Shown here: piece by piece, positions 21,500 through 57,328 of the stretch
Layout of the letters: the number at the start of each line of letters is the position of its first letter
Numbering within the stretch: the stretch's first letter is position 1
Source: Deltaproteobacteria bacterium
GTDB taxonomy: Bacteria > Myxococcota > Myxococcia > Myxococcales > SZAS-1
NCBI GenBank assembly: GCA_018266075.1
Contig: JAFEBB010000010.1
Span: forward strand, 1 to 64,000
Length of the DNA: 64,000 bases
Direction of reading: 5' to 3'
Translations under genes and position numbers: made by a program
The notes under the pieces: model-generated
What the model saw: the letters and a program-made list of their open reading frames with translations, nothing else
What the model was told of the DNA's origin: nothing
Databases searched by the model: none

Positions 21500-22507
21500 T
21501 CAGCGTCCGAAGTAGTCGCGGAACCAGGCCACGAAGCGCTTCACGCCTTCCTCCAGCGGCGTCGACGGCCGGAAGCCCACGTCGCGCTCGAGCTCCGAGG
21601 TGTCGGCGTTGGTGGCGTGCACGTCGCCAGGCTGCATGGGCAGGAAGTTTTTCACCGCCTTCTTGCCCAGCGCGGCCTCGAGCACCTCGATGAACCGCAG
21701 CACCTCCACCGGCTGGCTGTTGCCGATGTTGTAGATGCGGTACGGCGCGCTGCTGGTGGCCTCGTCGGGGTTGGCGCTCGACCACTTCGCATCCGGCGAC
21801 GCGGGGCGATCGAGCGTGCGGATCACGCCCTCGACGATGTCGTCGACGTACGTGAAGTCGCGCCAGAGGTGCCCCTCGTTGAAGACGTCGATCGGGCGGC
21901 CCTTGGAGATGGCGTCGGCGAAGAGCATGGGCGCCATGTCCGGCCGGCCCCAGGGGCCGTAGACCGTGAAGAAGCGCAGGCCCGTCGTGGGGATTCGGTA
22001 CAGGTGGCTGTACGAGTGGGCCATGAGCTCGTTCGCGCGCTTCGTCGCCGCGTAGAGGCTAACCGGGTGGCCGACCAAGTGGTGCTCGGAGAAAGGCGTG
22101 GTCGTATTGGCGCCGTAGACCGAGCTCGAGCTTGCGTAGACGAGATGTCGCACCTCGGCCTGGCGTGCTCCCTCGAGGATGTTGCCGAAGCCGACCAGGT
22201 TCGAGTCGATATAGGCCGCGGGGTTCTTGAGCGAGTAGCGGACGCCGACCTGCGCTGCGAGGTGGACCACCGCGGCAGGCTTCTTGGCGAAGAGCCGCGC
22301 CATGCCCTCGCGATCGGCGACGTCGAGCTGCTCGAAGGTGAAGCCCTTGCGACCTTCAATCCGGGCGAGGCGGGCGCGCTTGAGCGATGGGTCGTAGTAG
22401 GCGTTGAGGTTGTCGACGCCAACCACCTCGTCGCCGCGATCGAGCAGCCGCTCGGCGACGCGAGAGCCGATGAAGCCGGCGGCGCCTGTCAGCAGCACGT
22501 GCGTCAT
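21500..22507 (-). CDS. UDP-uronate 4-epimerase (SDR)
   Basis: This extended short-chain dehydrogenase of 335 residues has the NAD motif GAAGFIG (about residues 8-14), the active-site region YASSSSVYGA and YAATKRANE with the YxxxK pair. The stretch LRFFTVYGPWGRPDMAPMLF with WRDFTYVDDIVEG is characteristic of UDP-glucuronate 4-epimerases. It probably converts UDP-GlcA to UDP-GalA. Because it directly follows a UDP-GlcNAc dehydrogenase-type gene (9-nt gap), an N-acetylated uronic acid (as in TviC) is an equally good substrate. The product is a cytoplasmic precursor for the acidic sugar of the polysaccharide. Confidence 0.88.
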   Translation of the reverse strand: MTHVLLTGAAGFIGSRVAERLLDRGDEVVGVDNLNAYYDPSLKRARLARIEGRKGFTFEQLDVADREGMARLFAKKPAAVVHLAAQVGVRYSLKNPAAYIDSNLVGFGNILEGARQAEVRHLVYASSSSVYGANTTTPFSEHHLVGHPVSLYAATKRANELMAHSYSHLYRIPTTGLRFFTVYGPWGRPDMAPMLFADAISKGRPIDVFNEGHLWRDFTYVDDIVEGVIRTLDRPASPDAKWSSANPDEATSSAPYRIYNIGNSQPVEVLRFIEVLEAALGKKAVKNFLPMQPGDVHATNADTSELERDVGFRPSTPLEEGVKRFVAWFRDYFGR

Positions 22508-22516: not shown

Positions 22517-23830
22517 CTAGGCCTTCACCCAGGCGGTCCCGGATGGCGCCGGCGAGAGCGTATTGCGTGAATCGACGACGAGCTTCACGCCCGCGTAGAG
22601 CGCCGCGTCCTTGAACTGCTTGTGTGCGGTCGAGATAACGAGCGCGTCGAACCCTCGCAACGCCTCGTTGGTGCACGGCGTGGAGCTCATGCCCAGGTCG
22701 TACTTGCGCGTCTTGCGCGCCACCGGGAAGTACGGATCGCAGTACGCCACCTCGGCGCCGCGATCCTTGAGCAGCTCGATGATCTCGTAGCTCGGAGACT
22801 CACGGTCGTCGTCGATATCGGCTTTGTACGCCAGGCCGAGCACGCAGATCTTCGCGCCCTTGAGGCTCTTGCTCTGGTCGTTGAGCGCCGCCGCGGTCTT
22901 GTCGACCACGTAGTGCGGCATGTTCGTGTTCACCTCGCCCGCGAGGTGGATGAAGCGCGTCCAGACGCCGTACTCGGCCGCCTTCCACGAGAGGTAGAAC
23001 GGATCCAGCGGGATGCAGTGACCGCCGAGGCCGGGCCCCGGGTAGAACGGCGTGAAACCAAAAGGTTTCGTCTTCGCCGCCTCGATCACCTCCCAGACGT
23101 CGATGCCCATCTTGTCGAACGCGACCTTGAGCTCGTTCACCAGGGCGATGTTCACCGAGCGGTAGATGTTCTCGAGGAGCTTCGCGCTCTCGGCCACACG
23201 CGCATTCGAGACGGGGACGACCTTGTCGATCGCCGCCGAATAGAGCGCCACCGCCGCCTCGGTCGACGGCGAGTTGATGCCGCCCACGACCTTGGGGATG
23301 GTCTTGGTGGAAAAGCTCGCGTTGCCCGGGTCCTCGCGCTCGGGCGAGAAGGCGAGCAGGAAGTCGTCGGGGCACTTGAGGCCCGAGGTCGCAAGGATGG
23401 GCTGGACCTCTTCGTCGGTCGTGCCCGGGTAGGTGGTCGACTCGAGGATGACGAGCTGGCCCTTGCGGAGCCGCTTGGCGATCTCGCGCGCGGTCGCGTG
23501 GATGTAGCCGTTGTCTGGCTCGCGGTGCAGGCCGAGCGGCGTGGGCACGCAGATGATGATCGCGTCGGCGTCCTTGAGGCCATCGAAGTCGGCGCTGGCG
23601 ACGTAGCGGCCCGACTTCACCGCTTGGGCCACGCGCTCCTTGCCGATTTGCTTGATGTAGCTCTCGCCGCGGTTGATGGCCGCGACTTTGGCAGGATCGA
23701 CGTCGAAGCCGGAGACGCGGAAGCCGGCCTCGGCAAAGACGAGGCCGAGCGGGAGGCCGACGTAGCCCTGGCCGATGATGGCGATGCGGGCCGATTTGTC
23801 GGCGACCCGCTGGAGGATGGTGGCACCCAC
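22517..23830 (-). CDS. UDP-N-acetylglucosamine 6-dehydrogenase
   Basis: This nucleotide-sugar dehydrogenase of 437 residues matches the WbpA/TviB type more than the WecC type. It has an N-terminal Rossmann motif IIGQGYVGLPLGLVFAEAGF, then ICVPTPLG and LESTTYPGTTDEEV. Next come AFSPEREDPGN, KLLENIYRSVNIALVNELK, and the active-site Cys in GPGLGGHCIPLDPFYLSWKA (about residue 270). It oxidises UDP-GlcNAc (or UDP-ManNAc) at C6 using NAD. Upstream wecB and downstream epimerase genes place it in UDP-HexNAcA synthesis. The start follows a 339-bp divergent intergenic region shared with the Wzy-like gene. It forms a two-gene operon with the epimerase. Confidence 0.9.
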   Translation of the reverse strand: MGATILQRVADKSARIAIIGQGYVGLPLGLVFAEAGFRVSGFDVDPAKVAAINRGESYIKQIGKERVAQAVKSGRYVASADFDGLKDADAIIICVPTPLGLHREPDNGYIHATAREIAKRLRKGQLVILESTTYPGTTDEEVQPILATSGLKCPDDFLLAFSPEREDPGNASFSTKTIPKVVGGINSPSTEAAVALYSAAIDKVVPVSNARVAESAKLLENIYRSVNIALVNELKVAFDKMGIDVWEVIEAAKTKPFGFTPFYPGPGLGGHCIPLDPFYLSWKAAEYGVWTRFIHLAGEVNTNMPHYVVDKTAAALNDQSKSLKGAKICVLGLAYKADIDDDRESPSYEIIELLKDRGAEVAYCDPYFPVARKTRKYDLGMSSTPCTNEALRGFDALVISTAHKQFKDAALYAGVKLVVDSRNTLSPAPSGTAWVKA

Positions 23831-30343: not shown

Positions 30344-30487
30344 GTCGTCTACCTTCCTGACGGGAAACGTCCCGCCTTCTTACTACGCTCGCTCCGTGGA
30401 ATCAGCACGTACGAGCGGTTGCCTCTCGTGCCGAAATCCGAGTGAGTTCGTCGGCACTGAGGCCTCTTCGAGGAGCTGTGCCACGCG

Positions 30488-31693: not shown

Positions 31694-31713
31694 TCATCGT
31701 CCAGGTGATACTG

Positions 31714-32421: not shown

Positions 32422-32476
32422 TCCATTTCTCGCTCGAGGAGCACTTCTCGAGAGTGATCTCAAGTCTTCTCAAGCA

Positions 32477-34089: not shown

Positions 34090-34133
34090 GGTTCACCCAC
34101 CTCACGAACTCCTATCAAGTTCAACCACTCGAT

Positions 34134-35738: not shown

Positions 35739-35957
35739 CAGGGTCTCGTGACGGGTGTACCAGAGTTGGCCGCGCAGGCCAATGGGATCACCGGGTTACG
35801 CTGGGCGTGTCGACCGCTCGCGAGCGCGCGGCTCCGCCTTGCGCCGCGTCCGACCTCCGCTATGCTACGGCCGCTCAGTTGCTCGGTGCCGCTCGGCCGA
35901 CGCCAGGCCGCTCGGTTGGCACTCCGGCTCCCGCAAACTGGCAGATTGCAGGACCGA

Positions 35958-36611: not shown

Positions 36612-36640
36612 GCTGCTTCGGAAAGCGAAACCCGTGACGC

Positions 36641-40059: not shown

Positions 40060-40071
40060 GGTTAGCGTCCT

Positions 40072-40977
40072 TCAGCGCAGTCCTTCAGCGCGCTCCTCGG
40101 CAACGATTCGCAACAGGTACTCGCCGTAGCCAGCCTTCTTCATCGGCGCCGCGAGCCGCTCGAGGTCCTCCAGCGTGATCCAGCCCATTCGGTAGGCAAT
40201 CTCCTCGAGGCACGCAACTTTCAATCCCTGCCGCTCTTCGATGGTCTGGATGAAGGTCGAGGCCTGCACCAGGGCTTCGTGCGTGCCCGTGTCGAGCCAT
40301 GCAATGCCGCGGCCCATTCGCTCCACCTGCAGCGTGCCCTGCGCGAGATAGGCGCGGTTTACGTCGGTAATCTCAAGTTCACCGCGCGACGAGGGCTTGA
40401 GCGTGCGCGCTATATCGACGACCTGGTTGTCGTAAAAGTAGAGGCCGGTCACAGCGAACGAAGAACGTGGCTTGCTGGGCTTCTCCTCGATAGAAACCGC
40501 CCTGCCCTCACGATCAAAGTCGACCACGCCGTACCGCTCGGGATCTCGGACTTGATAGGCGAATACTGTCGCCCCGCTCCCACGCTGGGCCGCACGACGC
40601 AGATACGTGTGAAGACCGTGGCCGTAGAAGATATTGTCACCGAGCGCGAGCGAGACTGGACCTTTTCCGATGAACTCCTTGCCGATGATGAAGGCCTGCG
40701 CAAGCCCGTCGGGAGACGGCTGGACTGCATACTGAATATCAATTCCGAAGAGCTTTCCGTCACCAAGCAAGCGACGAAAAGACTCCTGGTCCTGCGGCGT
40801 GGTGATAACCAGAACGTCCCGAATCCCCGCGAGCATCAACGTCGAGAGCGGGTAGTAGATCAGCGGCTTGTCGTAGATCGGCAGGAGCTGCTTCGAGACG
40901 GACCGCGTAATCGGATAGAGCCTCGTTCCCGAACCGCCCGCGAGGATGATGCCCTTCATCTTCGTGCTGACGGTCAT
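40072..40977 (-). CDS. rmlA: Glucose-1-phosphate thymidylyltransferase
   Basis: This 301-residue enzyme makes dTDP-glucose from glucose-1-phosphate and dTTP. The nucleotide-binding motif is [20 protein letters not shown] and the uridylyl/thymidylyl site is [35 protein letters not shown] carries the metal Asp, and [20 protein letters not shown] and [15 protein letters not shown] are also typical. The ATG at 40977 overlaps the rmlB stop (ATGA), which decides the start. It is the third gene of the asnB-rmlB-rmlA minus-strand operon. rmlC and rmlD are not in the window, so dTDP-rhamnose cannot be made from these genes alone; an amino-6-deoxyhexose branch is the local alternative. Confidence 0.95.
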
Positions 40978-42080
40978 GACGCCTTCCCTGCTGCAGCCGG
41001 CTCCAGTCCGAGTCGGCGCCGGTCGTAGTTGTCCTTTTGAATGGCCTCGCACCAGCGCCGGTTCTCCACGTACCAGCGAATGGTGCGCGAAAGACCCTGC
41101 TCGAATTCATGCTCCGGCTTCCAGCCCAGCTCCGCGCGGATCTTGGTGGCATCGATGGCGTAGCGCCGGTCGTGCCCTGGCCGATCCGCGACAAACTTCC
41201 TGAGGCCCACGTAGCTGGCGATACCTGCAGCCTTCAACGCAGCGTTCTGCGCCGCAGGCACCACCTGCTCGAGTTCCGCACAAAGCCTGTCCACGATCGT
41301 CAGGTTGGTGCGCTCGTTTCCGCCGCCGATGTTATACTTTTCGCCGAGTCGGCCCCGCTCGAGCACGGCCAGAATGCCCTCGCAGTGGTCCTCCACATAG
41401 AGCCAGTCGCGAATATTGAGTCCATCACCGTAGATGGGCAGCGACTTCCCCTCGAGCGCGTTGAGGATCATCAACGGGATCAGCTTCTCGGGGAACTGGT
41501 GTGGCCCATAGTTGTTCGAGCAATTCGTTATCAGGACCGGCATGCCGAATGTTGAGAAGTACGAGCGGACGATGTGATCGGCGCTCGCCTTCGACGCCGC
41601 GTAAGGCGAATTCGGCGCGTAGGGCGTGGTCTCCGAGAAGAGTCCGGTCGAGCCGAGCGTGCCGTAGACCTCGTCGGTCGAGACGTGCAGGAACCGGAAG
41701 CGCCTCTGCTCCTCAGCGTCGAGCGTCTTGTGAAACTCGCGAGCGGCGTCGACGAGCTCGAACGCGCCCAATGCGTTCGTGCGAATGAACGCGCGCGGCC
41801 CATCAATGGAGCGGTCCACGTGGGTCTCGGCTGCCAGGTTCAACAGCGCGCGCGGACGGTGCATGCGAATCGCCTCGTCCACGGCGCGTCGGTCGGCGAT
41901 GTCGACCTTGCAGAAGGTGAATCGTGGATCGCGCTCGAGGCCCTCGAGATTGTGCAGACTGCCGGCGTAGGTGAGCTTGTCGATGACCACCACGCGCGCG
42001 TCAGTCTTCTTCAACAAGAGCCGCACCAGATTCGACCCGATGAAGCCTGCGCCGCCGGTGACGATGATGGACTCGCTCAC
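40974..42080 (-). CDS. rmlB: dTDP-glucose 4,6-dehydratase
   Basis: This 368-residue extended SDR converts dTDP-glucose to dTDP-4-keto-6-deoxyglucose. Motifs are [15 protein letters not shown] at the NAD site, [15 protein letters not shown], the catalytic STDEVYG, the Tyr/Lys pair in [10 protein letters not shown], and [29 protein letters not shown] and [13 protein letters not shown] are dehydratase-specific. Both ends overlap neighbouring genes by four bases (rmlA start and asnB stop), so the three genes form one operon. Its keto-sugar product is the expected substrate of the aminotransferase at 36641-37870. An unusual extended C-terminus ends PAAAGKAS. Confidence 0.95.
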
Positions 42081-43873
42081 GCCTTGCTCCCGAACTCACG
42101 CGCCCACGATTCCATCGCGAGCAATGCCCAAACCTGGTGTGCGTTTCCTCTGCCCTCGTTCAACCTCTCGAGTGTCGCGTCGAGGCCTTCGGTACTCAAC
42201 CACTGCCGTACGCGCGCACCCGGCGATGAGAGCAGATCCGCGACCATTCCCCGCAGCGGCCCCTTGAGCCACGCATCCACAGGACTCCCAAAGCCTCGCT
42301 TCGGCCGATCGAGAATCTCCGGCGGCAGCAGATCGCGCATGGCCGCAACGAGCCCACGCTTGCCGCGGGTTGCGTCCTGCTTTGCGCCGATGGGAAGCGG
42401 AATCGCGAGCTCGGCCAGGTGGTGATCGAGCATCGGGCTCCGCGACTCGAGGCTCGCGCGCATCGACGCGGTGTCCACCTTGAAGAGCAGGTCGTCAGGC
42501 AAGTACGTCTGCAGATCGAAAGCGATCGCCGAGTCGGCATCACTCGGCAGCTCCGGCCCGAGCTCGGCGGTTCTCGACAATCCGAGCAACGCCTCGCGCT
42601 CGCCCGGAGAAAACACTTCAATCATGGCGCGCGCCCGCGCCGCGCCACGCGCGCCAATTGCCGCGGCGCCGCGTCGAACCGTCGAGCGCCGGGGAAACTG
42701 GGGGAGCTTCTCGACAAGCTCCGCAGCCCGCTCCACAAAGGGGACGTGCGGCAGCTTGAGCACGTCTCGATACTTGCCGTAGCCCGCGAAAAGCTCATCG
42801 CCGCCGTCGCCGGTGAGCACGACCTTGGAGTGCTTGGCCACTTCGCGGCAGATCGCAACCGTAGGCACCGAGCTCGAGTCACCAAAGGGCTCGCTGTACG
42901 CCGCGAAGGCGTGTCGCGTCAGTTCCTCAACGCCGTCGGTAATCAGGATCTGCTGATGCTCGGTCTTGTAGCGCTCCGCCACCGCACGCGCGAACGGCAG
43001 CTCGTCGTCCGCCATGCCAAAGCCGACCGAGAACGTGCGCACCGGCTTGCTGAGCTCGCGGGCCATCAGCGCCACGACGCTCGCGGAGTCGAGACCGCCA
43101 GAGAGCATTGCGGCAACTGGCACGTCGCTGCGCAGCTGCAGGCGCACCGCCTCCTCGAGCGCCGCCCGCAACTCCGGCACCGCGTCGCTCTGACCCTTGC
43201 GCGTGCCCGGCACCGGCGGCTGCCAGTAGCGCTGAATGCGGACGCCCTTCGCATCCGCAATCAGCAGGTGACCTGCGGGCAGCTTCTTCGCGCCCGCGTA
43301 GATGCTGCGCGGAGCGGGAATGTAGAGCAGCTCCAGGTAGTCGCTCAGCGCGTCGCGATCGATTGCGCCGTCGACGAACCCAGCCGCGACGAGCGCGCGC
43401 AGCTCCGACGCAAACGCGAGTGTGCCATTGCGCTCGGCGTACACGAGTGGCTTTTCACCAAACCGATCGCGCGCGATGAGCAGCCGCTGCTGCTTCGCAT
43501 CCCAGAGCGCGAACGCGAACATGCCGCGCAGCTTCTCGACCATCCGGTCGCCGAGATCCTCGTAGAGGTGCACAAGCACCTCGGTGTCGCTCTGGGTCTC
43601 GAGCTTGTGGTGCGCGCGCAGCTCCTCGCGAAGCTCCTTGTAATTGTAGATCTCGCCGTTGAGTACGACGGCGACGGTCTTGTCCTCGTTGAAGATCGGC
43701 TGCTCGCCGGTCGCCAGGTCGATGATCGCCAGCCGTCGGTGGCCGAGCGCAACGGCACCACCGTCGTAGAAGCCATCGCCATCAGGCCCGCGGTGCGCGA
43801 GCGCAGCGGTCATCGTGCGGACCGCTTCGAGGTTCGCGCGTGGGAAGGCTATGTGGCCGGAGATGCCGCACAT
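42077..43873 (-). CDS. asnB: Asparagine synthase-like amidotransferase (1st copy)
   Basis: This 598-residue glutamine-hydrolysing protein has its nucleophile Cys2 (MCGISGH) and class II GATase landmarks LAHRGPDGDGFY, LNGEIYNYKELR and SDTEVLVHLYED. The C-terminal synthetase domain has the PP-loop SGGLDSASVVALM and LTGDGGDELFAGYGKY. Within polysaccharide loci these proteins are thought to amidate uronic-acid carboxyls or other sugar acids rather than make free asparagine. The uronate-forming genes at 21500-23830 fit that idea, but this is inference. The gene leads the operon with rmlB and rmlA. It is divergent from a GT-C-like gene (91-bp gap). A second, distinct copy is at 46608-48470. Confidence 0.9.
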   Translation of the reverse strand: MCGISGHIAFPRANLEAVRTMTAALAHRGPDGDGFYDGGAVALGHRRLAIIDLATGEQPIFNEDKTVAVVLNGEIYNYKELREELRAHHKLETQSDTEVLVHLYEDLGDRMVEKLRGMFAFALWDAKQQRLLIARDRFGEKPLVYAERNGTLAFASELRALVAAGFVDGAIDRDALSDYLELLYIPAPRSIYAGAKKLPAGHLLIADAKGVRIQRYWQPPVPGTRKGQSDAVPELRAALEEAVRLQLRSDVPVAAMLSGGLDSASVVALMARELSKPVRTFSVGFGMADDELPFARAVAERYKTEHQQILITDGVEELTRHAFAAYSEPFGDSSSVPTVAICREVAKHSKVVLTGDGGDELFAGYGKYRDVLKLPHVPFVERAAELVEKLPQFPRRSTVRRGAAAIGARGAARARAMIEVFSPGEREALLGLSRTAELGPELPSDADSAIAFDLQTYLPDDLLFKVDTASMRASLESRSPMLDHHLAELAIPLPIGAKQDATRGKRGLVAAMRDLLPPEILDRPKRGFGSPVDAWLKGPLRGMVADLLSSPGARVRQWLSTEGLDATLERLNEGRGNAHQVWALLAMESWAREFGSKA

Positions 43874-45459: not shown

Positions 45460-46605
45460 ATGAAGGTTCTGATCAACGCCCTCTCCGCACGCCTCGGCGG
45501 CGGCATCACCGTCCTCCGCAACCTCATGCCGGCGCTCGCCGACGTGGACGGCGGGGCGCACGAGTACACCGTCCTCGGCCGCGCCGAGACCCGCGAGTCC
45601 TTCCGCTTCGACTCCTCCCACGTGACTGTCACCACCTCTCCCTTCGCCGAGCGCTCGGGCGCCACCCGGCTCGGCTGGGAGCAGCTCGTCCTCCCCACTC
45701 AACTCGCCCTCGACCAGGCCGACGTCCTCTTCTCGCCTGCCAACCTGGCCGTGCTCGCCTGCCCCAAACCTCAAGTTTTGATGTTCCAGAACATGGCGCC
45801 CTTCGACGACGACGTGCTCGCGCGCACCGACGGCAGCCGCCGCCTTCGCCTGCGCGCCCTCCGCACGCTCGGCGACGTGAGCGCCCGAGCCGCCGATCGC
45901 GTGGTCTTCATCTCCGACTTCGCCCGCCGCGAGATCAGCAGCCAACTGCGCATCCCGGCGAGCAAGTGCTCGCGCGCCTACCTGGGGCGCGACCCGGCGT
46001 TCACGCCGGCCGCCAAGGGCAGCGCCGCGCCGATTCTCGAGAAGCTCGGCGTGCGCGGTCGTTACCTGCTCAGCGTGTCGCAGTTCTACCACTACAAGAA
46101 CTTCACCGAGCTCGTGGTCGGCTTCGCGCGCGCGCTCCCCGGGCTGCCCAGCGACGTGAAGCTGGTCATCGCCGGCGCCGAACACGAGCGCGACTACGCC
46201 GACGCCGTTCGCGCGACGATCGCCCGCGAGCGCGTGGGCGATCGCGTGGTGCTCGCCGGCCAGGTGCCCTACGCGCAGCTCCCTGGCCTCTACGCCTCCG
46301 CCGAGCTCTTCCTCTTCCCGAGCACCTGCGAGAACTTCCCCAACATCCTCGTAGAAGGCCTGGCGTCAGGCGTGCCCACGCTCTCTTCCGGGCTTGGCCC
46401 GATGCCCGAGATCGCGGGTGAAGGAGCCATGTACTTCGATCCTTTTACCCCCGACGAGATCGCTGCACTCATTTTGCGCCACTGGCACGATTCGTCGGCC
46501 TCGCGCGCGCTCGCTGAACGCGGAATCGCGCAGGCCGCACGGTACTCGTGGCAGGCGACCGCGAGGGCCCTGCTCACCGCTTTCGAAGAGGCAGCAGCGC
46601 GCTAA
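45460..46605 (+). CDS. Glycosyltransferase family 4
   Basis: This 381-residue GT4 enzyme begins MKVLINALSARLGGGITVLR, with the glycine-rich acceptor loop. VLFSPANLAVLACPKPQVLM and VVFISDFARREI precede the donor domain (LLSVSQFYHYKNFTELVVGF). The E-x7-E-type region is FLFPSTCENFPNILVEGLAS, followed by GVPTLSSGLGPMPEIAGEG. It probably adds one repeat-unit residue. GC content rises sharply from this gene onward, marking the right edge of the lower-GC block. It heads a tightly packed operon: the asnB start is 2 nt downstream of its stop. Confidence 0.9.
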   Translation: MKVLINALSARLGGGITVLRNLMPALADVDGGAHEYTVLGRAETRESFRFDSSHVTVTTSPFAERSGATRLGWEQLVLPTQLALDQADVLFSPANLAVLACPKPQVLMFQNMAPFDDDVLARTDGSRRLRLRALRTLGDVSARAADRVVFISDFARREISSQLRIPASKCSRAYLGRDPAFTPAAKGSAAPILEKLGVRGRYLLSVSQFYHYKNFTELVVGFARALPGLPSDVKLVIAGAEHERDYADAVRATIARERVGDRVVLAGQVPYAQLPGLYASAELFLFPSTCENFPNILVEGLASGVPTLSSGLGPMPEIAGEGAMYFDPFTPDEIAALILRHWHDSSASRALAERGIAQAARYSWQATARALLTAFEEAAAR

Positions 46606-46607: not shown

Positions 46608-48470
46608 ATGTGCGGCATCGTCGGTCAGATCGGGTCCAAGCCCACCGAGCTCGCTCCCGCGCTGGACGCGATCCACCACCGCGGCCCCGACGACCGCGGC
46701 ACCTGGCGCGGCCGCGCCGGAGAGCAGACCGTCGACCTCGGCTTCGTTCGCCTGGCGATCCTCGACCTCTCGCCCGCCGGTCACCAGCCCATGCCCAGCG
46801 CCGACGGCTCGGTGTGGCTCACCTTCAACGGCGAGATCTACAACTACCGCGAGCTGCGCGACGAGCTCCGCGCCGCGGGCCACACCTTCAAGAGCGAGAG
46901 CGACAGCGAGACCATCCTCTACGCCTACCAGCAGTACGGCGAGGCGTTCGTGCAGCGGCTGCGCGGCATGTTCGCGCTCGCGCTCTGGGACGCGAAGCGC
47001 GAGAAGCTGGTGCTCGCGCGCGACCGGCTGGGCATCAAGCCGCTGCTCTATTCGCAGCACGGCGGGCGTCTCGCGTGGGCGTCGGAAGCGAAGGGGCTGC
47101 TGAAGCTCGGCGTCCCGCGCACGCTCAACCGCGACGCCCTGCACGACTACCTGCGCTACCTCTACGTACCGCCGCCGAAGTCGATCTTCGCGGAGATTCA
47201 CCGGCTCGAGCCGGGCCACATGCTCGTCTGGGAGCGCGGACAGCTTCGAAACGAGCGCTACTGGTCGATCACCCGCGCGCCCGAAGAACGCGATGAAGCG
47301 ACCGTGATCGCGCAGCTCCGTCAGCTCCTGGAAGAGACCGTGCGCCAGCACCTGGCGAGCGACGTGCCGCTCGGCGCGTTCCTCTCCGGCGGCCTGGACA
47401 GCTCCACGCTCGTGGCCCTGATGGCGCGCCACACGCCGGGCAAGGTGAAGACGTTCTGCATGACCTTCGGCGACGGCGAGGAGCTCTACGACGAGCGCCA
47501 GTACGCGCGCGCCGTCGCGCAGCACTTCGGCACCGAGCACACCGAAATCCCGGTGAAGCCGAACCTCGTGGAGCTCTTGCCGCAGATGGTGCGCCACTTC
47601 GACGAGCCTTTCGGAAATCCCACGGCGCTGCTCGTCTACCTGCTCTCGCAAGAGACGCGGAAGCACGTGACGGTGGCGCTCGCGGGCGACGGCGGCGACG
47701 AGGTGTTCCTCGGCTATCCGCGCTACCAGGGCGCGTGGCTCGCGTCGCGCTATCGCGTCGCGCCGCGGATGCTGCGACACGCGCTCGGCGATCTCTCGAG
47801 CCTCATCCACGACTCCACCCGCGGCAACCACTCGCTGCGCCGCGCGCGCGAGTTCCTCTCCACGGGCGAGCTGCCGCTCGAGGAGATGTACGAGAACTGG
47901 ATCGGCTACTTCACCGAAGCGGAGATCCGGACGCTGCTGCGGCAGGCGACGGCCCAAACCCATTCGCAGCTCGCGCCGCTCTTCGCCGAAGCCACCGGCA
48001 CCGAGTTCGTGGATCGCGCCGCGCAGGTCGACCTGCGCTCATTCCTGCCTGGCAACCTGCTCCGCTACACCGACGCGATGAGCATGGCGCACTCGCTCGA
48101 AGTCCGCGTGCCGTTCTGCGATCACCGGCTCGTCGAGTTCCTCGCCGCGCTGCCGGCGTCGCAGAAGATGCCGCGGCTGGAGATGAAGGCGCTGCTCAAG
48201 AAGGCGATGGCCAAAGAGCTCCCGCCGATGGTGCGCGAGCGCAAGAAGCTCGGGTTCAATCCGCCCATGGGAATCTGGCTCAACCGCGAGCTCGCTCCCC
48301 TGGTGGACGAGCACCTCTCGCCCGCGCGGCTCGAGCGCGAAGGGTTCTTTGATCCGGGACTGGTCTCGGAGATGATGGCCGCGCACCGCAAGGGTACGCG
48401 CGACTTCTCGCTGCACATCTGGTCGCTGCTGGTGTTCCAGACGTGGCTGGGGCTGTACCAGGGAGCGTGA
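46608..48470 (+). CDS. asnB: Asparagine synthase-like amidotransferase (2nd copy)
   Basis: This 620-residue protein has N-terminal Cys2 (MCGIVGQIG), IHHRGPDDRGTWRG, FNGEIYNYRELRDELRAAGH and ESDSETILYAYQQ in the glutaminase domain. The synthetase domain has LSGGLDSSTLVALMARH and LAGDGGDEVFLGYPRYQG. It differs clearly from the 42077-43873 copy in length and in most of its residues. Copies of this kind sit in capsule and exopolysaccharide operons beside a fused oxidoreductase and a heparinase-family protein, exactly as here. It may amidate a sugar carboxylate in the same pathway. The start is set by MCGIVG; the next gene starts 1 nt after its stop. Confidence 0.9.
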   Translation: MCGIVGQIGSKPTELAPALDAIHHRGPDDRGTWRGRAGEQTVDLGFVRLAILDLSPAGHQPMPSADGSVWLTFNGEIYNYRELRDELRAAGHTFKSESDSETILYAYQQYGEAFVQRLRGMFALALWDAKREKLVLARDRLGIKPLLYSQHGGRLAWASEAKGLLKLGVPRTLNRDALHDYLRYLYVPPPKSIFAEIHRLEPGHMLVWERGQLRNERYWSITRAPEERDEATVIAQLRQLLEETVRQHLASDVPLGAFLSGGLDSSTLVALMARHTPGKVKTFCMTFGDGEELYDERQYARAVAQHFGTEHTEIPVKPNLVELLPQMVRHFDEPFGNPTALLVYLLSQETRKHVTVALAGDGGDEVFLGYPRYQGAWLASRYRVAPRMLRHALGDLSSLIHDSTRGNHSLRRAREFLSTGELPLEEMYENWIGYFTEAEIRTLLRQATAQTHSQLAPLFAEATGTEFVDRAAQVDLRSFLPGNLLRYTDAMSMAHSLEVRVPFCDHRLVEFLAALPASQKMPRLEMKALLKKAMAKELPPMVRERKKLGFNPPMGIWLNRELAPLVDEHLSPARLEREGFFDPGLVSEMMAAHRKGTRDFSLHIWSLLVFQTWLGLYQGA

Positions 48471-48471
48471 C

Positions 48472-50622
48472 GTGAAGCAGGTCCTCCAGTCGTACCGCAC
48501 CGGCGTGCTGCGCGTCGCCGAAGTGCCCGCGCCCGGCGTCGAGCCCGGCAGCGTCCTCGTCCAGACCTCGGCCTCGCTGGTGTCCGTGGGCACCGAGCGC
48601 ATGACCGTGGAGCTCGCCAAGAAGTCGCTCGTCGGCAAGGCGCGCGAGCGGCCCGATCTCGTGAAGAAGGTCGTCGACCGCGTGCAGCGCGACGGCCTGG
48701 TGACCACCGCTGGCGCCGTCTTCAACAAGCTCGATTCGCCGATTCCGCTCGGCTACTCGTGCGTCGGCAAGATCATCGCCGTCGGCGAGGGCGTGAGCGG
48801 GCTCTCCGTGGGCGATCGCGTCGCCTGCGCGGGCGCGAAGGTCGCCAACCACGCCGAGGTGAACCTCGTCCCGGTGAACTTGTGCGCCGCGGTTCCGACC
48901 GACGTCGACGACGAGGCCGCGGCCTTCGTGACCGTCGGCGCCATCGCGCTGCAAGGCGTCCGAACCGCCGTGCCCACGCTCGGCGAGAGCTTCGCCGTCA
49001 TCGGCCTCGGCTTGCTGGGCCAGCTCGCTGCTCAGCTCCTGCGCGCGAATGGCTGCAAGGTGATCGGGATCGATCTGGATCCGAAGAAGGTCGAGCTCGC
49101 CAAGACGCTCGGCGCCGATGCCGCCGTCACCCGCGACGCCGACGTGCTCCAGACCGTGCTCCAGCACACCGGCGGCCGCGGCGTCGACGGCGTGATCATC
49201 ACCGCGGCCACGAGCAGCAACGATCCCGTCGAGCTCGCGGGCGAGCTGTGCCGCGATCGCGGACGCGTGGTCGTCGTCGGCGCAGTGAAGATGGAGGTGC
49301 CGCGCCGGCCCTACTACGACAAGGAGCTCAGCTTCTTCCAGAGCCGCTCCTACGGCCCGGGTCGCTACGATCCCGCGTACGAAGATCAGGGCCACGACTA
49401 TCCCATCGGCTACGTGCGCTGGACCGAGCAGCGCAACATGAGCGCGTTCCTCGAGCAGTGCGCGCGCGGGGCCGTCAAAGTCGCGCCGCTCATTTCGCAC
49501 CGCTTCGAGATCGCCAAAGCCGAAGACGCCTACGCGCTCATCACCGGCGGCGGCGAGCCGCTCGGCGTGCTGCTCACCTATCCCGAGCAGGCTGTCGCGC
49601 CGACGCGCACGGTGAATATCTCGCCCGCACGCAGCTCGAGTGGCGCGCCGCGGATTGGCTTCATCGGCGCGGGTGCGTTTGCGTCGGGCGTGCTGGTGCC
49701 GGCGCTCGCGGGCGCGGGCGCGGAGCTGGTGAACATCGCCTCGGCGCGCGGCTTCTCGGCGCGCCACCTCGCCGAGCGCCACGGCTTCCAGAAGTGCAGC
49801 ACCGACGCCGACGAGCTCCTTCGCGACAAGGACGTCGACGCCGTCTTCATCGCCACGCGCCACAACCTGCACGCCAAGCAGACCATCGCCGCGTTCGAAG
49901 CGGGCAAGCATGTGTTCGTGGAGAAGCCGCTCGCGCTCACCGAAGAAGAGCTGGCGGCGATCCTCCAGGTGCAGCGCGAGTCCGGGAAGCTCTTGGCTGT
50001 GGGCTTCAACCGCCGCTTCGCGCCGCTCTCGATCGAGCTCCGCGACTTCGTGCGCGCGCGCAACTCGCCGCTGGTGATGCACTACCGCGTGAACGCGGGC
50101 GTCATCCCCAACGACTTGTGGATCCAGGATCCGAAGATCGGCGGCGGCCGGATCATCGGCGAGCTCTGCCACTTCGTGGATCTCTGCGCGTTCCTCGCCG
50201 ACGAGCCGCCCATCGAGGTCTTCGCGCACGGCGTGAGCCCGCACGGCGGCGCGCGCAGCGACGACAACGTGAACGTCTCGCTCCGCTTCGCCGACGGAAG
50301 CATCGCCACGATCGCGTACGTCGCCACGGGCGACACCTCCGCGGGCAAGGAGCAGCTCGAGGTGCTCGGCGGGGGCATGCACGCCGTGCTCGACGACTTC
50401 CGCGAGCTCAACCTACGCCGCGGCGGCAAGAAGACGCGCAGCCGCAAGCTCGTTCAGGACAAGGGCCACAAGGCCGGCGTGCGTGCGTTCATCGACGCCG
50501 TCCGCTCGGGGCTTGGTCCGCCCATTCCGGTTCGCACGTTGGCCGCGACGACGCGCGCGACGTTCGGTGCCGTGCGCGCGCTCGAGTCGGGCCAGCCCGT
50601 GGCCATCCCGCTCGAGCCGTGA
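48472..50622 (+). CDS. Fused ADH-like/Gfo-Idh-MocA bi-domain oxidoreductase
   Basis: This 716-residue fusion starts with a medium-chain dehydrogenase domain (about 1-375). It has GYSCVGKIIAVGEGVSGLSV, GDRVACAG, the Rossmann motif VIGLGLLGQLAAQLL and VIGIDLDPKKVELAK. The catalytic zinc Cys of classical ADHs is replaced (SVGTERM instead of C-x-G-T/S-D), so zinc binding is doubtful. A second domain from about residue 393 is a Gfo/Idh/MocA oxidoreductase (RIGFIGAGAFASGVL, EKP in FVEKPLAL near 482, GGGRIIGELCHFVDLC). The GTG start follows the asnB stop by 1 nt and the stop overlaps the next GTG. Two NAD(P) sites in one chain suggest sequential or redox-neutral chemistry on one sugar; the substrate is unknown. 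Confidence 0.85.
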   Translation: MKQVLQSYRTGVLRVAEVPAPGVEPGSVLVQTSASLVSVGTERMTVELAKKSLVGKARERPDLVKKVVDRVQRDGLVTTAGAVFNKLDSPIPLGYSCVGKIIAVGEGVSGLSVGDRVACAGAKVANHAEVNLVPVNLCAAVPTDVDDEAAAFVTVGAIALQGVRTAVPTLGESFAVIGLGLLGQLAAQLLRANGCKVIGIDLDPKKVELAKTLGADAAVTRDADVLQTVLQHTGGRGVDGVIITAATSSNDPVELAGELCRDRGRVVVVGAVKMEVPRRPYYDKELSFFQSRSYGPGRYDPAYEDQGHDYPIGYVRWTEQRNMSAFLEQCARGAVKVAPLISHRFEIAKAEDAYALITGGGEPLGVLLTYPEQAVAPTRTVNISPARSSSGAPRIGFIGAGAFASGVLVPALAGAGAELVNIASARGFSARHLAERHGFQKCSTDADELLRDKDVDAVFIATRHNLHAKQTIAAFEAGKHVFVEKPLALTEEELAAILQVQRESGKLLAVGFNRRFAPLSIELRDFVRARNSPLVMHYRVNAGVIPNDLWIQDPKIGGGRIIGELCHFVDLCAFLADEPPIEVFAHGVSPHGGARSDDNVNVSLRFADGSIATIAYVATGDTSAGKEQLEVLGGGMHAVLDDFRELNLRRGGKKTRSRKLVQDKGHKAGVRAFIDAVRSGLGPPIPVRTLAATTRATFGAVRALESGQPVAIPLEP

Positions 50623-52340
50623 CCTCGCTCGGCACACTGCTGCGCACCCTGCGCCACCTCTCGCCGGAGCAGGTGATCCGGCGCGCGGTGCACGAGGTGC
50701 GGCAGCGCGTCGAGCCGCATGCGGGCCCCGCGACGCGCCTGCTCTACGCGCCCGTTCCTGAAGCGAAGTGCGTCGTCTCGCTTGGAAAGCCGGCGGAGCT
50801 GAGCGAGGAGCGCGTGATCGTCGAGCGCTGGCAGCGCGGCGTGGTGGAGATCCACGGCGTTGAACGCGCGCGCGACGACTGGAGCAACGCGGAGATGTCG
50901 CGGCTCTGGCGGTACGAGCGGCAGTACCACCGCGAGCTGCCGGCGCTGGCCATGCTCGCTCCCGACGACGCGCGCGCGCTGGTGCAGAGCTGGCTCGCCG
51001 CGTGTCCGCCGCTCGGTCGCGACGCGTGGGAGCCGTATCCCGTCGCGCGGCGGATCTTGAATTGGTCGCTCGCGCTCGCGCTGAATCCCGCACTCGAGCC
51101 CGAGCTCGCGCCCCACCTCGCGGGCCAGGTGCGCTGGCTCGCGAACCACCTCGAGCGGCACCTGCTGGGCAACCACCTGCTCTGCGATCTCTGCGCGCTC
51201 GTCGCCGGCGCGTCCACGCTCGAGTTTTCCGACAGCGACGCGATTCTGAAACGTGCGTTGGATGGCCTCGCGCACGAGCTTCCGAAGCAGCTTCTCGCAG
51301 ATGGCGGCTACGCCGAGCGCACGGCGCAGTACCACGCGATCGTGCTCGACGATGCGCTCCTGGCCGCGACGCTCGCGACACAGCGAGGCGTCGAGCTGCC
51401 TGCTTCGCTGCGAAATGCTCTCGAAGCGATGACGCGTTGGCTCTCGGTGGTGCGCCGCGCCGATGGCAGCGTGCCGTACCTCAACGACGCCGCGCCGGGC
51501 TCGATCCCGAATCTGGATCGCGTGCTGTCGCGCGCGCACGCGCTCGGGATCTCGACGACGCCCAAAGGCCACGCCGCGACCGAGCTCTCGCAGACCGGTT
51601 GGAGCATCGTTCGTCGAGGCGCGCACGAGCTGCTCTTCGAGCACGGACCCATTGGCCCCGACGAGCAGCCTGGCCATGGCCACTCCGACGGGCTCTCGTT
51701 CGAGCTCATTTGGGACGGCGAGCGCGTCGTCGAAGACACGGGCACCACGAGCTACGTCGCAGATGCGGTCCGCCACCACGAACGCTCGGCCACGGCGCAC
51801 GCGTCGATCACCGTGGACGGACAGAGCCCCGACGAGCTCTGGGCCGCCTTCCGCGTGGGCGCGCGCGCGACGATCTCCGGCGAAGCTGCGCGGCTCCTCG
51901 AGGACGACGTGTGGTCGCTGCGCGGTTCGCTGCTCGCGCCGCAAGGCTGGCGACATGAGCGCGGCCTGATCTTCTGGCCCGGTCGCGCGCTGGTGATCCT
52001 CGACGTCGTCGAAGGCACCACGGGCCACGCCCTCGCGCACCTTCCGCTCGCGCCGGGTTGGAGCTGGCACGGCTCCTCGCTGCGCCGCGGTGAACGCGAG
52101 CTTCAGCTGCACACACTGCTCGGCATGTCGATCGATGCCATCGATGGCTGGGTGAGCGCCGGCTTTGGCAAGAAGCTGCCGCGAACCACGCTTCGTTTTC
52201 AGGCAGATCTCTCGGGCCGCATCGCCGTGGTCCTCGCGGCGCCGGGCGCGATGGGCGCGCTCGAGAAGAACGGCTGTGTCATCGAGCATGCAGGCGAGCG
52301 TCGCCACGTGGTGCTCGATGCGCGCGGCCTGCCCACGTAG
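50619..52340 (+). CDS. Heparinase II/III-family protein
   Basis: This 573-residue protein matches the heparinase II/III family. It has an N-terminal alpha-barrel part (RLWRYERQYHRELPALAML, ILNWSLALALNPALEPEL, HLLGNHLLCDLCALVAGAST) and a C-terminal beta domain with EQPGHGHSDGLSFELIWDGE (about residue 350). That segment contains the catalytic-type His, and VVEDTGTTSY follows. No signal peptide is apparent, unlike secreted lyases, which points to a cytoplasmic or unusual role within polysaccharide synthesis. The GTG start overlaps the preceding TGA (GTGA), which decides the start. The glycosyltransferase gene follows after 15 nt. It could cleave or epimerise uronic-acid linkages, or have lost lyase activity. 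Confidence 0.82.
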   Translation: MTSLGTLLRTLRHLSPEQVIRRAVHEVRQRVEPHAGPATRLLYAPVPEAKCVVSLGKPAELSEERVIVERWQRGVVEIHGVERARDDWSNAEMSRLWRYERQYHRELPALAMLAPDDARALVQSWLAACPPLGRDAWEPYPVARRILNWSLALALNPALEPELAPHLAGQVRWLANHLERHLLGNHLLCDLCALVAGASTLEFSDSDAILKRALDGLAHELPKQLLADGGYAERTAQYHAIVLDDALLAATLATQRGVELPASLRNALEAMTRWLSVVRRADGSVPYLNDAAPGSIPNLDRVLSRAHALGISTTPKGHAATELSQTGWSIVRRGAHELLFEHGPIGPDEQPGHGHSDGLSFELIWDGERVVEDTGTTSYVADAVRHHERSATAHASITVDGQSPDELWAAFRVGARATISGEAARLLEDDVWSLRGSLLAPQGWRHERGLIFWPGRALVILDVVEGTTGHALAHLPLAPGWSWHGSSLRRGERELQLHTLLGMSIDAIDGWVSAGFGKKLPRTTLRFQADLSGRIAVVLAAPGAMGALEKNGCVIEHAGERRHVVLDARGLPT

Positions 52341-52355: not shown

Positions 52356-53612
52356 ATGAAGATCCTCTACCTCAGCCAGTACTTTCCGCCGGAGATGGGC
52401 GCGCCCGCCGCGCGCGTGCACGAGTTCTCGCGCGCGTGGGCCGAGCTCGGCCACGACGTCACCGTACTCACGGGATTTCCGAATCACCCGACCGGGATCA
52501 TTCCGCCGGAGTACCGCGGCGAGCTCGTGCGTCGCGAGGTCGTCGACGGCATCAAGGTGGTCCGCGCGCCCATCTACGCCGCGGCCAACAAGGGCAAGGT
52601 CCGTCGCGCCCTCAACTACTTCTCGTTCGGCGCGAGCGCGGCCAGCATCGGTCCGTTGCTCGTCGAGCGGCCCGACGTCCTCGTCGCCACCTCGCCGCAA
52701 TTCCTGGCGGCCGTGGCTGGGTACTGGCTCTCGAAGCTCAAGCGCGTGCCCTGGGTGTTCGAGGTGCGCGATCTCTGGCCGCGAAGCATCGTCGAGGTCG
52801 GCGCGATGACCGCCGACAACCCCGTCATCAAGGGACTCGAGCAGGCCGAGCGCTTCCTGTATCGCCACGCGGATCACATCGTCGCGGTCACGCACTCGTT
52901 TGTCGACGAGATCGCGGCGCACGGCATCGATCGCTCGCGCATCTCCGTGGTCACCAATGGCGTGGACACCGAGCTCTTCCAGCCGCGCCCGCGCGACGCC
53001 GCACGCAAGCAGCTCGGCCTCGGCGAGGAATTTCTCGCCACGTACATCGGCACGCACGGCATGGCCCACGGGCTGGGCACGGTGCTCGACGCCGCCGCGC
53101 TCCTCCGCGACAAGCCCGTGCAATTCCTCCTCGTGGGCGAAGGCGCGGAGAAGGCCAACCTCAAGGCGCGCGCGCAGAAAGAAGGCCTGCGCAACGTGAC
53201 CTTCTGGGATCAGATCCCGCGCGATCAGGTGGCGCAGGTGATCGCCGCGACGGATCTCTGCCTGGTGCTGCTGCGCGACCTGCCGCTCTTCCGCACCGTG
53301 ATCCCGTCGAAGATCTTCGAGTACCTCGGCGCCGCGCGGCCCATCCTCACCACCGTCGACGGCGAGTCGCGCAAGATCCTCGACGCCTCGCGCGCCGGCA
53401 TCTTCTCGCCGCCCGAGAACGCCGAGGCGCTCGCGCGCAACATCTCCGAGCTCGCCGCGCAGCCTGATCGGCTCACCCAGATGGGCAAGCTCGGACGCGA
53501 GTTCGTGGTGGCGCACTACTCGCGCACCGCGCTCGCCGAGCGCTACGCCCAGATCCTGGCCGAGGTGGCGCAGGGCCGCGACGTGCCGGCTGGCGTCGCC
53601 CTGGGCTTGTGA
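52356..53612 (+). CDS. Glycosyltransferase family 4, WbuB-like
   Basis: This 418-residue GT4 enzyme has the WbuB/colanic-acid type N-terminus (ILYLSQYFPPEMGAPAARVH, VTVLTGFPNHPTG). It also has VFEVRDLWPRSIVEVGAM, VVTNGVDTELFQPRP and VGEGAEKANLKARAQKEGL. DLCLVLLRDLPLFRTVIPSK with FEYLGAARPIL forms the donor-side signature in place of the usual E-x7-E. The WbuB type often transfers an amino-deoxyhexose such as FucNAc or a related residue. It is the last gene of the operon starting at 45460. The WecA-like gene follows after 180 bp with its own ribosome-binding site. Confidence 0.88.
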   Translation: MKILYLSQYFPPEMGAPAARVHEFSRAWAELGHDVTVLTGFPNHPTGIIPPEYRGELVRREVVDGIKVVRAPIYAAANKGKVRRALNYFSFGASAASIGPLLVERPDVLVATSPQFLAAVAGYWLSKLKRVPWVFEVRDLWPRSIVEVGAMTADNPVIKGLEQAERFLYRHADHIVAVTHSFVDEIAAHGIDRSRISVVTNGVDTELFQPRPRDAARKQLGLGEEFLATYIGTHGMAHGLGTVLDAAALLRDKPVQFLLVGEGAEKANLKARAQKEGLRNVTFWDQIPRDQVAQVIAATDLCLVLLRDLPLFRTVIPSKIFEYLGAARPILTTVDGESRKILDASRAGIFSPPENAEALARNISELAAQPDRLTQMGKLGREFVVAHYSRTALAERYAQILAEVAQGRDVPAGVALGL

Positions 53613-53792: not shown

Positions 53793-55256
53793 ATGTTGAC
53801 GTACGTCGTGGCGTTCGGGCTGGCCTTCGCCATCGCCACCGCGCTCACGCCCGTCGTCCGCAACCTCGCGCTGCGCTACGGCCTCGTGGACGCGCGCTCG
53901 TCGCGCAAGGTGCACGAGAAGCCCATCCCCCGGCTCGGCGGCCTGGCCATCGTCATCGGCTTCTACGCGCCGCTCGTGGGCCTGGCCATCTACCACAACT
54001 CGATCTCGCAGCTGCTCTACGCCGATCGTCTCCGCGTGGCGGGCTTCTTCGCGGGCGGCATCTTCATCGCAGCGCTCGGCCTCTACGACGACCTGAAGGG
54101 CGCCAACGCGCGGCAGAAGTTCGCGGCGCAGTTCATCGTCGCGGCGGTGATGTACGCGCTCGGCTTCCACGTCGATGCCATCGCCAACCCCTTCGGCAGC
54201 CCGCTGCAGTTCGGCGTCCTCGGCTTTCCGATCACGCTCGTGTGGATCGTAGGCGTGATCAACGCGCTCAACCTGATCGACGGCCTAGACGGCCTCGCCT
54301 CGGGCGTGGCGTTCTTCGCGGTGGCCACCAACTTCCTGGTCGCGTTCGTGCGCGGCGACATCCTCATGAGCTTGCTCATGGTGGCCCTCGCCGGCGCGAT
54401 CCTCGGTTTCTTGCTCTTCAACTTCAACCCGGCGTCGATCTTCATGGGCGACACGGGGAGCATGTTCCTGGGCTTCATCCTGGCCACGAGCTCCATCGTC
54501 ACGTCGCAGAAGGGCGCGACGGCGGTGGCCATGCTGGTGCCCATCCTCGCGCTCGGCCTGCCGATCATGGACACGCTGCTGGCCATGCTCCGCCGCTTCA
54601 TCACCGGCCGGCCCATGTTCAGCGCCGACAAAGAGCACATCCACCACAAGCTGATGGCGCTGGGCTACACGCACCGGCGCGCCGTGCTGGGCATGTACGT
54701 GATCTGCGTGTTCTTCACGCTCGCGAGCCTGGGGATCATGTTCGCGAACGCGCCGCAGGCCGCGCTGATCCTCGCGGTGGTGGGCGCGGTGGTCTTCGTG
54801 CTCATGCGCCGGCTGGGCTACCTCGACCTGCAGCGCGTCGCCGAGGTGGGCGTCACGCGGCGCAAGAATCTCGCGGTGCGCTCCGCCATCAACAGCATCA
54901 GCGAGCAGCTCCGGAACGCCGCCAACGCCGAGGCCATCTGGGCGTCGGTGCAGGCCATCGGCGAGCCGCTCGCGGTGACCATGCTGGAGCTCAAGCTGCT
55001 CACGCCGGGGAGCGAGTCCAAGGGCTTCACCCTGAGCCGAAGCCCGTTGTCGCCGCGTGCCATCGAGGCCGTGGTGCCGGTGGAGGCCGATGGCGTGTCG
55101 CACGGCGAGCTGCGCGCGTGCTGGACCGACGGTCGCAACGAGATCGGCCGCGACGATGAGCTCGCGCTGGAGCTGCTCGCGGATCACATCCGCCAAGCCG
55201 CCAAGCGCATCGAGACGGAGCGCGAGGGCAAGCCGCTGCGGCTCGTGGTTCGCTGA
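53793..55256 (+). CDS. WecA/MraY-type glycan-1-P transferase with C-terminal extension
   Basis: This polyprenyl-phosphate HexNAc-1-phosphate transferase begins glycan assembly on undecaprenyl phosphate. Landmarks over the first about 340 residues are SSRKVHEKPIPRLGGLAIVI, LGLYDDLKGANARQKFAAQF (Asp pair near residue 97), INALNLIDGLDGLASG, FMGDTGSMFLGFIL and the HIHHKL motif near residue 282 that binds the sugar nucleotide. Roughly ten or eleven membrane helices are present. Residues from about 345 to 487 form an extra soluble domain (RKNLAVRSAINSISEQLRNA and VTMLELKLLTPGSESKGF). It resembles a small GAF/PAS-like regulatory or binding module absent from standard WecA. It probably starts the repeat unit. 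Confidence 0.88.
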   Translation: MLTYVVAFGLAFAIATALTPVVRNLALRYGLVDARSSRKVHEKPIPRLGGLAIVIGFYAPLVGLAIYHNSISQLLYADRLRVAGFFAGGIFIAALGLYDDLKGANARQKFAAQFIVAAVMYALGFHVDAIANPFGSPLQFGVLGFPITLVWIVGVINALNLIDGLDGLASGVAFFAVATNFLVAFVRGDILMSLLMVALAGAILGFLLFNFNPASIFMGDTGSMFLGFILATSSIVTSQKGATAVAMLVPILALGLPIMDTLLAMLRRFITGRPMFSADKEHIHHKLMALGYTHRRAVLGMYVICVFFTLASLGIMFANAPQAALILAVVGAVVFVLMRRLGYLDLQRVAEVGVTRRKNLAVRSAINSISEQLRNAANAEAIWASVQAIGEPLAVTMLELKLLTPGSESKGFTLSRSPLSPRAIEAVVPVEADGVSHGELRACWTDGRNEIGRDDELALELLADHIRQAAKRIETEREGKPLRLVVR

Positions 55257-56282
55257 TCAGCGCTTCACGCGACGAAGCGCGCTTCTCCAGCTCGCCGACA
55301 TCACCCGCACCGCGAAGTACGCCGCGCCACGCGCGCGCGAGTCGCTCCAGACCGCGTCCGAGGCGAGGTTGAGCACCGACTCGAGCGCAGTCTGCGGAAC
55401 CTCCACAGCCCAGCTCCGCGGCAAGATCCGCGTGTCTCGCGACGCCGAGCGCCGCCAGGCCGCGGGCATGTCCTGCGCGGGAAAGCCAACGCGCTCCTCA
55501 GCCGCGAGCAGTGCCGCGCCCACCGCGCGCCGAGCGCGAATGGCACGCGTCCGAAACTCCAGCGCGTCCCAGTCGAGCGGCGCCAGACGCGCGAGCATCT
55601 TGAGATCCAAGAGCCACAACTCGCGCTCGAGGTTGTGACCCGCGGCGTGCAGCGCCAGGAAGATCAATTCGTCGATCGGATCCGCGACGCGCACGCGCAG
55701 CTCGAGCAACTCCTGGACGCGCGCGCGCATGAAGAGCGCCTCGGAGGGAAACCGCGTGGCCACGCGCGACGAGGGCCGCTGGTGCAGCTCCACCAGCAGT
55801 CCTCGAAAGTGTAGGCCGAGGTGGTGGTGGTAGCGCTCGAAGAAGCCGCGATTCTCGGCGTACTCGGGGCTGAGCTCGGCGCCCGCGGCCTCGAGCGCGG
55901 CCATCGCGCGCTGCAGATCGCTTTCGTGCACGAGCACGTCCACGTCCGACGTGGGACGCAGCGTGAAGTCCCCGTAGAGCCGCGCGGCGAGCACCGGCCC
56001 CTTGAGCGGCAGCGCGGCCACGCCCGCGGCCTCGAGCGTCTTGAGCACGACCTTGAGCGCCGAGAGCACGCGAATGCCCTGTGCCGCCTGGGCGCGATGC
56101 AGGTCGCGCACGCTTGGCAACACGCCGAGCTGCGAGGCGACGAGCACGCCCACGCCGTTGTTGCGCGCGAGCTCCCAGAAGCCGGGCAGCTCGAGATCGA
56201 TCTCCGTCGTCGGACGATCGGGAAACGCGCGCAGACACGCGCGGAGCTGCTCCAGCGCGTGCGGCGGCGGCGCTGGCGCCAT
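55257..56282 (-). CDS. Nucleotidyltransferase-family protein (intact D-x-D)
   Basis: This 341-residue protein of the NTP_transf_5-type family is often found in polysaccharide and carbohydrate clusters. LPLKGPVLAARLYGDFTLRP leads into TSDVDVLVHESDLQRAM, with D-V-D forming the metal site of the polymerase-beta-like fold. GLHFRGLLVELHQRPS supplies the third acidic position. The remainder is helical with FLALHAAGHNLERELWLLDL. Its substrate is not known; transfer of a nucleotidyl or phosphosugar group is the family expectation. It lies 5 bp downstream of the fucose-synthase gene and shares that transcript. A paralogue lacking the acidic motif is encoded at 62082-63050. Confidence 0.75.
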   Translation of the reverse strand: MAPAPPPHALEQLRACLRAFPDRPTTEIDLELPGFWELARNNGVGVLVASQLGVLPSVRDLHRAQAAQGIRVLSALKVVLKTLEAAGVAALPLKGPVLAARLYGDFTLRPTSDVDVLVHESDLQRAMAALEAAGAELSPEYAENRGFFERYHHHLGLHFRGLLVELHQRPSSRVATRFPSEALFMRARVQELLELRVRVADPIDELIFLALHAAGHNLERELWLLDLKMLARLAPLDWDALEFRTRAIRARRAVGAALLAAEERVGFPAQDMPAAWRRSASRDTRILPRSWAVEVPQTALESVLNLASDAVWSDSRARGAAYFAVRVMSASWRSALRRVKR

Positions 56283-56287
56283 CCGCC

Positions 56288-57328
<1,041 letters not shown>

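Follow-up and report, generated by a model that had tools for sequence, protein, structure and literature searches.

PL12 enzymes are secreted and degradative. The heparinase II/III-fold protein studied here, Hep, has the Hepar_II_III N and C domains of the PL12 heparinase III structures (4MMH, 4FNV and 5JMD), a common fold over about 490–500 residues and the same catalytic Asn/Tyr/His. It differs from them in that it is only 15–18% identical, has no signal peptide and is encoded in a biosynthetic locus. Human DS-epi1 is known to resemble bacterial lyases in both fold and active site (PMC8006597). Its structure (6HZN) has in common with Hep the fold, a tyrosine that serves as the base and another conserved tyrosine. 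DS-epi1 is a biosynthetic enzyme that acts on uronate at the polymer level, in the Golgi and on chondroitin, and its His205 is probably replaced by Asn in Hep.

In Vibrio vulnificus YJ016, single deletion of either VV0357 (zinc-binding dehydrogenase) or VV0358 (heparinase III-like) abolishes the capsule (PMC6037467). These two genes have consecutive locus tags, are described as a zinc-binding dehydrogenase and a heparinase II/III-like protein (pfam07940) and lie near a capsule locus (PMC6037467); they recall hep and its neighbour bi, which encodes a bi-domain oxidoreductase fusing an MDR and a Gfo/Idh/MocA part. VV0357 is, however, predicted by Phyre2 in that study to have two transmembrane helices, which does not fit Bi. 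From the likeness of these descriptions, rather than of the sequences, we infer that VV0357 and VV0358 belong to the same families as Bi and Hep. The initial annotation had called the reaction undescribed to its knowledge, and this still holds, for V. vulnificus too. The module itself is not wholly undescribed, since a capsule-essential pair described alike is on record (PMC6037467). No paper naming the bi-hep pair as a module was found in the open-licence PMC literature searched.

AsnB-type genes are already known from surface-polysaccharide loci (PMC3684757; PMC9012009), and wbpS-annotated genes of the R. gelatinosus psc1 cluster turned up in a biofilm screen (PMC3684757). The asnB product of our locus resembles the WbpS-type amidotransferases in being an AsnB-like protein that retains the cysteine of the glutaminase and the ATP site and is encoded among polysaccharide genes; the module differs from these systems in that asnB is no constant partner of bi-hep. 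A close annotated arrangement is on a Parabacteroides distasonis plasmid (NZ_OY725823.1), where two overlapping genes named by NCBI "bi-domain-containing oxidoreductase" and "alginate lyase family protein" are followed by wecC, wecB and a GT4 gene; unlike our locus it has no asnB, and it is annotated by name only. The V. cholerae NRT36S capsule locus and the V. parahaemolyticus K loci were considered as structure-solved precedents and set aside, no heparinase being reported in them. Halobacterium Agl32 was likewise rejected as a heparinase-fold precedent, as it has a different fold (PMC13308652).

Organisation of the locus

The window, i.e. the whole 64,000-nucleotide stretch analysed, contains the following genes around and upstream of the module:

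21500..22507 (-): GalE/TviC-like nucleotide-sugar epimerase adjoining the 6-dehydrogenase gene (TIGR01179 147 bits, TviC model 119 bits, all under cut-off)
22517..23830 (-): nucleotide-sugar 6-dehydrogenase (TIGR03026 430 bits, cut-off 190)
45460..46605 (+): GT4-type glycosyltransferase (Pfam Glycos_transf_1, E 1.1e-20), ending 2 nt 5' of asnB
46608..48470 (+): asnB, AsnB-type glutamine amidotransferase (ATG start, MCGIVG...; Asn_synthase E 9e-104)
48472..50622 (+): bi, MDR and Gfo/Idh/MocA fusion (GTG start; ADH_N/ADH_zinc_N and GFO_IDH_MocA)
50619..52340 (+): hep, heparinase II/III-fold enzyme (GTG start; Hepar_II_III_N and C)
52356..53612 (+): GT4 glycosyltransferase, WcaI-like (ATG start; PRK10307 187 bits, under the cut-off of 276)
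53793..55256 (+): WecA/MraY-type polyprenyl-phosphate sugar-1-phosphate transferase, 3' of the GT4 gene (Glycos_transf_4 E 1.8e-40)

The ORF coordinates bear out the initial description of four tightly packed genes: asnB, bi, hep and the GT4 gene are co-directional on the + strand with successive spacings of 1, −4 and 15 nt, the start of hep overlapping the 3' end of bi by 4 nt. The domains assigned to them were also all found, including GATase_6/7 beside Asn_synthase in the amidotransferase. The gene run is longer than first listed, with a GT4-type transferase gene on its 5' side and the WecA/MraY-type gene on its 3' side. Elsewhere in the window lie several more glycosyltransferase genes, a gene for a Polysacc_synt-family membrane protein, dTDP-sugar genes and the nucleotide-sugar 6-dehydrogenase gene; the window therefore carries a surface-polysaccharide locus. 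The 6-dehydrogenase, a source of UDP-uronate encoded about 27 kb from the module, is a possible precursor supplier.

G+C content is about 0.59–0.64 at 24000-42000 and about 0.69–0.71 on either flank, suggesting that this section of the polysaccharide locus came in by an acquisition of its own, apart from the asnB-bi-hep part. The region 36641-42080 probably encodes a dTDP-4-amino-6-deoxy sugar pathway: RmlA and RmlB exceed their TIGR cut-offs, and a DesI-like aminotransferase scores 508 bits (cut-off 650). A second AsnB-type amidotransferase gene (42077-43873, -) lies a few kb from asnB on the opposite strand, and an uncharacterised NTP_transf_5 nucleotidyltransferase gene (55257-56657, -) is convergent with the WecA-like gene.

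Features of the three proteins

The asnB product retains the Cys2 nucleophile (MCGIVG) and the ATP site LSGGLDSS, and scores above the TIGR01536 cut-off (494 bits, cut-off 267). The genome has six Asn_synthase matches of full or almost full length, this protein included. An identity as the XrtA/PEP-CTERM (exosortase) amidotransferase was ruled out (TIGR03108 513 bits, cut-off 817).

In its model (pLDDT 87.1), Bi is similar to sorbitol-type MDRs and to Gfo/Idh/MocA enzymes that act on sugars. At the two canonical zinc-ligand positions that were checked, the catalytic Cys/His ligands of MDR alcohol dehydrogenases are absent and replaced by Ser38 and Tyr95, which are invariant in all 44 Bi proteins. 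The Gfo/Idh/MocA Rossmann domain is recognised (PF01408, E 9.8e-26) and the motifs of this family (the EKP lysine and GGG..E..H..D) are kept, E484-K485-P486, H567 and D570, with them the catalytic Lys and His, being invariant (44/44). Residues 291-322 of the MDR domain (S.SYGPGRYD..YE..G.DYP...VR.T..RN) are strongly conserved in all Bi proteins and of low confidence in the model; they possibly form a substrate loop.

Both heparinase domains of Hep score over cut-off (Hepar_II_III_N, E 3.6e-14; Hepar_II_III_C, E 3.9e-33). Its AlphaFold model, with a mean pLDDT of 72.7 and low-confidence active-site loops, shows an alpha/alpha toroid and a beta-sandwich. Its structural matches are 4FNV, a heparinase III (Z 21.1, rmsd 4.2 over 502), 4MMI (Z 20.0, rmsd 6.9 over 493) and human DS-epi1 6HZN (Z 18.0, rmsd 4.2, 490 aligned). 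Ten residues, the metal histidines among them, are kept without exception across the 67 Hep sequences (Asn185, His186, Glu233, Tyr238, His353, His355, Tyr379, Arg385, His394 and Arg448). The catalytic Asn/Tyr/His correspond to N185/Y238/H353, aligned to 4MMH chain positions 216/270/400, which, with an offset of 24, we take to be the published PhHepIII catalytic residues Asn240/Tyr294/His424. A degenerate, inactive heparinase was ruled out by this conservation, and Hep is probably an active enzyme.

Asn185 presumably occupies the position, assigned via PL12, of the neutralising His of DS-epi1 (His205) and heparinase II. Against the DS-epi1 set His205/Tyr261/Tyr473, Hep has Tyr238 and the invariant Tyr379, with Asn185 probably standing where His205 would be. 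On this assignment every one of the 67 Hep proteins has Asn at the DS-epi1 His position, a feature of PL12 lyases, which makes the active site appear more lyase-like than epimerase-like.

The initial annotation had described a heparinase without a signal peptide. In agreement with this, a hydropathy test, which is not a signal-peptide predictor, found no N-terminal hydrophobic stretch either in the Hep of the window or in 63 of 63 homologues; a recurring motif of type YWHTLRYLKPVQ is seen there instead. By sequence, Hep is predicted to be a cytoplasmic protein.

Recurrence and linkage across genomes

Scanning with the fusion protein brought up relatives under the record titles Myxococcales/Deltaproteobacteria, Gammaproteobacteria, Bryobacterales (Acidobacteriota), Rhodothermaceae, Bacteroidota, Chloroflexi and Gemmatimonadales, several of them with a heparinase and a GT4 gene immediately 3' of bi. 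Among 146 genomes of the phylum to which the window belongs, strict thresholds gave bi in 12 and hep in 7. The hep genomes are a subset of the bi genomes (p ~3e-9 if genomes are taken as independent, which they are not fully), and the two genes are adjacent in all seven; bi occurs without hep in the other 5 of 12. Hep was further detected in 21/369 genomes of the gammaproteobacterial class sample, 11/247 of the Acidobacteriota sample and 26/296 of the Bacteroidota sample. The module was thus seen in Myxococcota, Gammaproteobacteria, Acidobacteriota, Bacteroidota and Rhodothermota, beyond close relatives, and its recurrence in unrelated phyla is more than chance. The outcome that the initial annotation would have taken as a refutation, absence from all but near relatives, thus did not occur.

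Neighbourhoods were compared for 66 hep loci; all counts are lower bounds because contig ends shorten some of them. A GT4 gene is present in 52 and lies immediately 3' of hep in 48. In 42 loci bi and hep are no more than 10 kb apart, with bi immediately 5' of hep in 30 and often overlapping it; the remaining 24 have hep without bi. WecB-type UDP-GlcNAc 2-epimerase genes (27/66), WecA-like genes (24/66) and UDP-sugar 6-dehydrogenase genes (10/66) also recur. With asnB in only 15 of the 66 loci, the trio of asnB, bi and hep proposed at first is not the conserved core; what is conserved is bi-hep-GT4, to which asnB is an optional addition. Genes in exactly the order asnB-bi-hep were found again in one locus of the Acidobacteriota sample (L143) and one of the gammaproteobacterial sample (L121). 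In some Bacteroidota-sample loci, WbuX-HisH-HisF and a Gfo-type dehydrogenase lie next to bi-wecB-hep-GT4-WecA-dehydrogenase. One gammaproteobacterial locus (L007) carries two divergent bi-hep pairs (831-5008 and 10001-13758), the second with a hep of distant type.

On an annotated E. coli plasmid, hep occurs with wecB-wecC and without bi. This plasmid (pCRE10.2, IncC, conjugative) carries wecB-wecC-DUF2837-polymerase-GT-hep-GT4 as a small polysaccharide cassette between IS26 copies, and its heparinase-like gene is also present on Enterobacter and Citrobacter plasmids. The hep tree, which has several long branches and is unsure in its details, requires the bi label to switch at least 10 times, in keeping with cassettes that are being shuffled; a bi-associated hep subfamily of single origin is not supported.

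Candidate functions of the module

The genes are best explained as a tailoring module within a surface-polysaccharide locus, probably one of the lipid-carrier type. The reading that we favour, although we give it slightly less than an even chance, is that a uronic acid on a lipid-linked repeat unit is tailored in the cytoplasm during assembly of the surface polysaccharide, most likely by C5-epimerisation. The WecA-like enzyme would prime the lipid carrier and the GT4 enzymes would add sugars. Bi would oxidise and/or re-reduce a sugar via a keto intermediate. Hep would then take the C5 proton from a uronic acid of the carrier-linked oligosaccharide at the cytoplasmic face, most likely epimerising it as DS-epi1 does. 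This would allow the following transferase to act, in many loci the GT4 encoded next to hep. Where present, AsnB would probably amidate the carboxyl group of the uronate, a role that has been proposed for WbpS-type enzymes. The neighbouring genes, such as the wecB-wecC pair that adjoins hep on the plasmids named above, point to HexNAc-uronic acids as the sugars concerned.

For an enzyme that appears cytoplasmic with its catalytic residues intact, it is sensible to expect chemistry at the C5 proton of a uronic acid, and the uronate-forming and lipid-carrier genes around hep point to such chemistry during assembly. Epimerisation is preferred to cleavage because the capsule loss in both V. vulnificus deletions fits a synthetic and not a degradative role (PMC6037467). 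The Asn found for the DS-epi1 His in all Hep proteins would count against an epimerase, and the separate occurrence of hep without bi (24/66 loci) and of bi without hep (5/12 genomes) indicates two separable steps, which weakens the favoured reading. The original proposal of one coupled pathway to an amidated or C-5/C-4 modified uronic sugar therefore stands in part: gene coupling, recurrence and plausible C5 chemistry speak for it, and amidation is at most an optional extra.

The lyase-like active site and the best fold match, both of PL12 type, would suit a true cytoplasmic lyase acting in quality control, cutting back or recycling lipid-linked chains with uronate whose assembly has stalled or gone wrong. 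AlgL is thought to do a comparable clean-up for alginate in the periplasm. We consider this unlikely for Hep, which has no signal peptide and is surrounded by glycosyltransferase genes, with no uronate-catabolism family found among its recurrent neighbours. A related degradative role was proposed by the authors of the V. vulnificus study, but it is not obvious that a strain lacking a mere clean-up enzyme would lose its capsule as reported there (PMC6037467). The genes might instead travel as a common cassette in mosaic loci and act on different residues of one glycan with no shared reaction. Polysaccharide loci do reshuffle, the hep tree implies 10 or more gains or losses of the linkage to bi, and each gene occurs without the other; conservation of the order bi-hep-GT4 across phyla and the co-occurrence within the phylum (under the assumption of independence given above) argue for joint selection, and we regard co-location as the main cause as unlikely. 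In a further scheme the two enzymes would act in turn on one residue: beta-elimination by Hep would leave a 4,5-unsaturated uronate, and the MDR domain, being zinc-free, would then reduce its activated double bond, so that a 4-deoxy-uronate or an altered chain end results. The adjacent and often overlapping genes would fit this scheme, as would Ser38 and Tyr95 in Bi; MDR enzymes that lack zinc are frequently ene-reductases. Such a dependence of one enzyme on the other agrees poorly with how commonly each gene occurs alone and with the changing bi label on the tree, and we regard it as highly improbable.

Epimerisation on the lipid-linked repeat unit, if correct, could make Hep a bacterial counterpart of DS-epi1. 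A cytoplasmic heparinase-fold epimerase paired with a zinc-free MDR-Gfo fusion would then form a widespread, unrecognised route to C5-epimerised (e.g. L-gulo/L-ido) uronic acids, a broader proposal that we put forward as rather doubtful. Heparinase-fold proteins are almost always taken as secreted degraders. A conserved cytoplasmic branch within coat-building loci, with its catalytic residues intact and an oxidoreductase as recurrent partner, would represent a biosynthetic use of this fold in bacteria. It could account for the origin of certain unusual uronic acids found in O-antigens and capsules, an origin that would become directly testable in non-pathogenic hosts.
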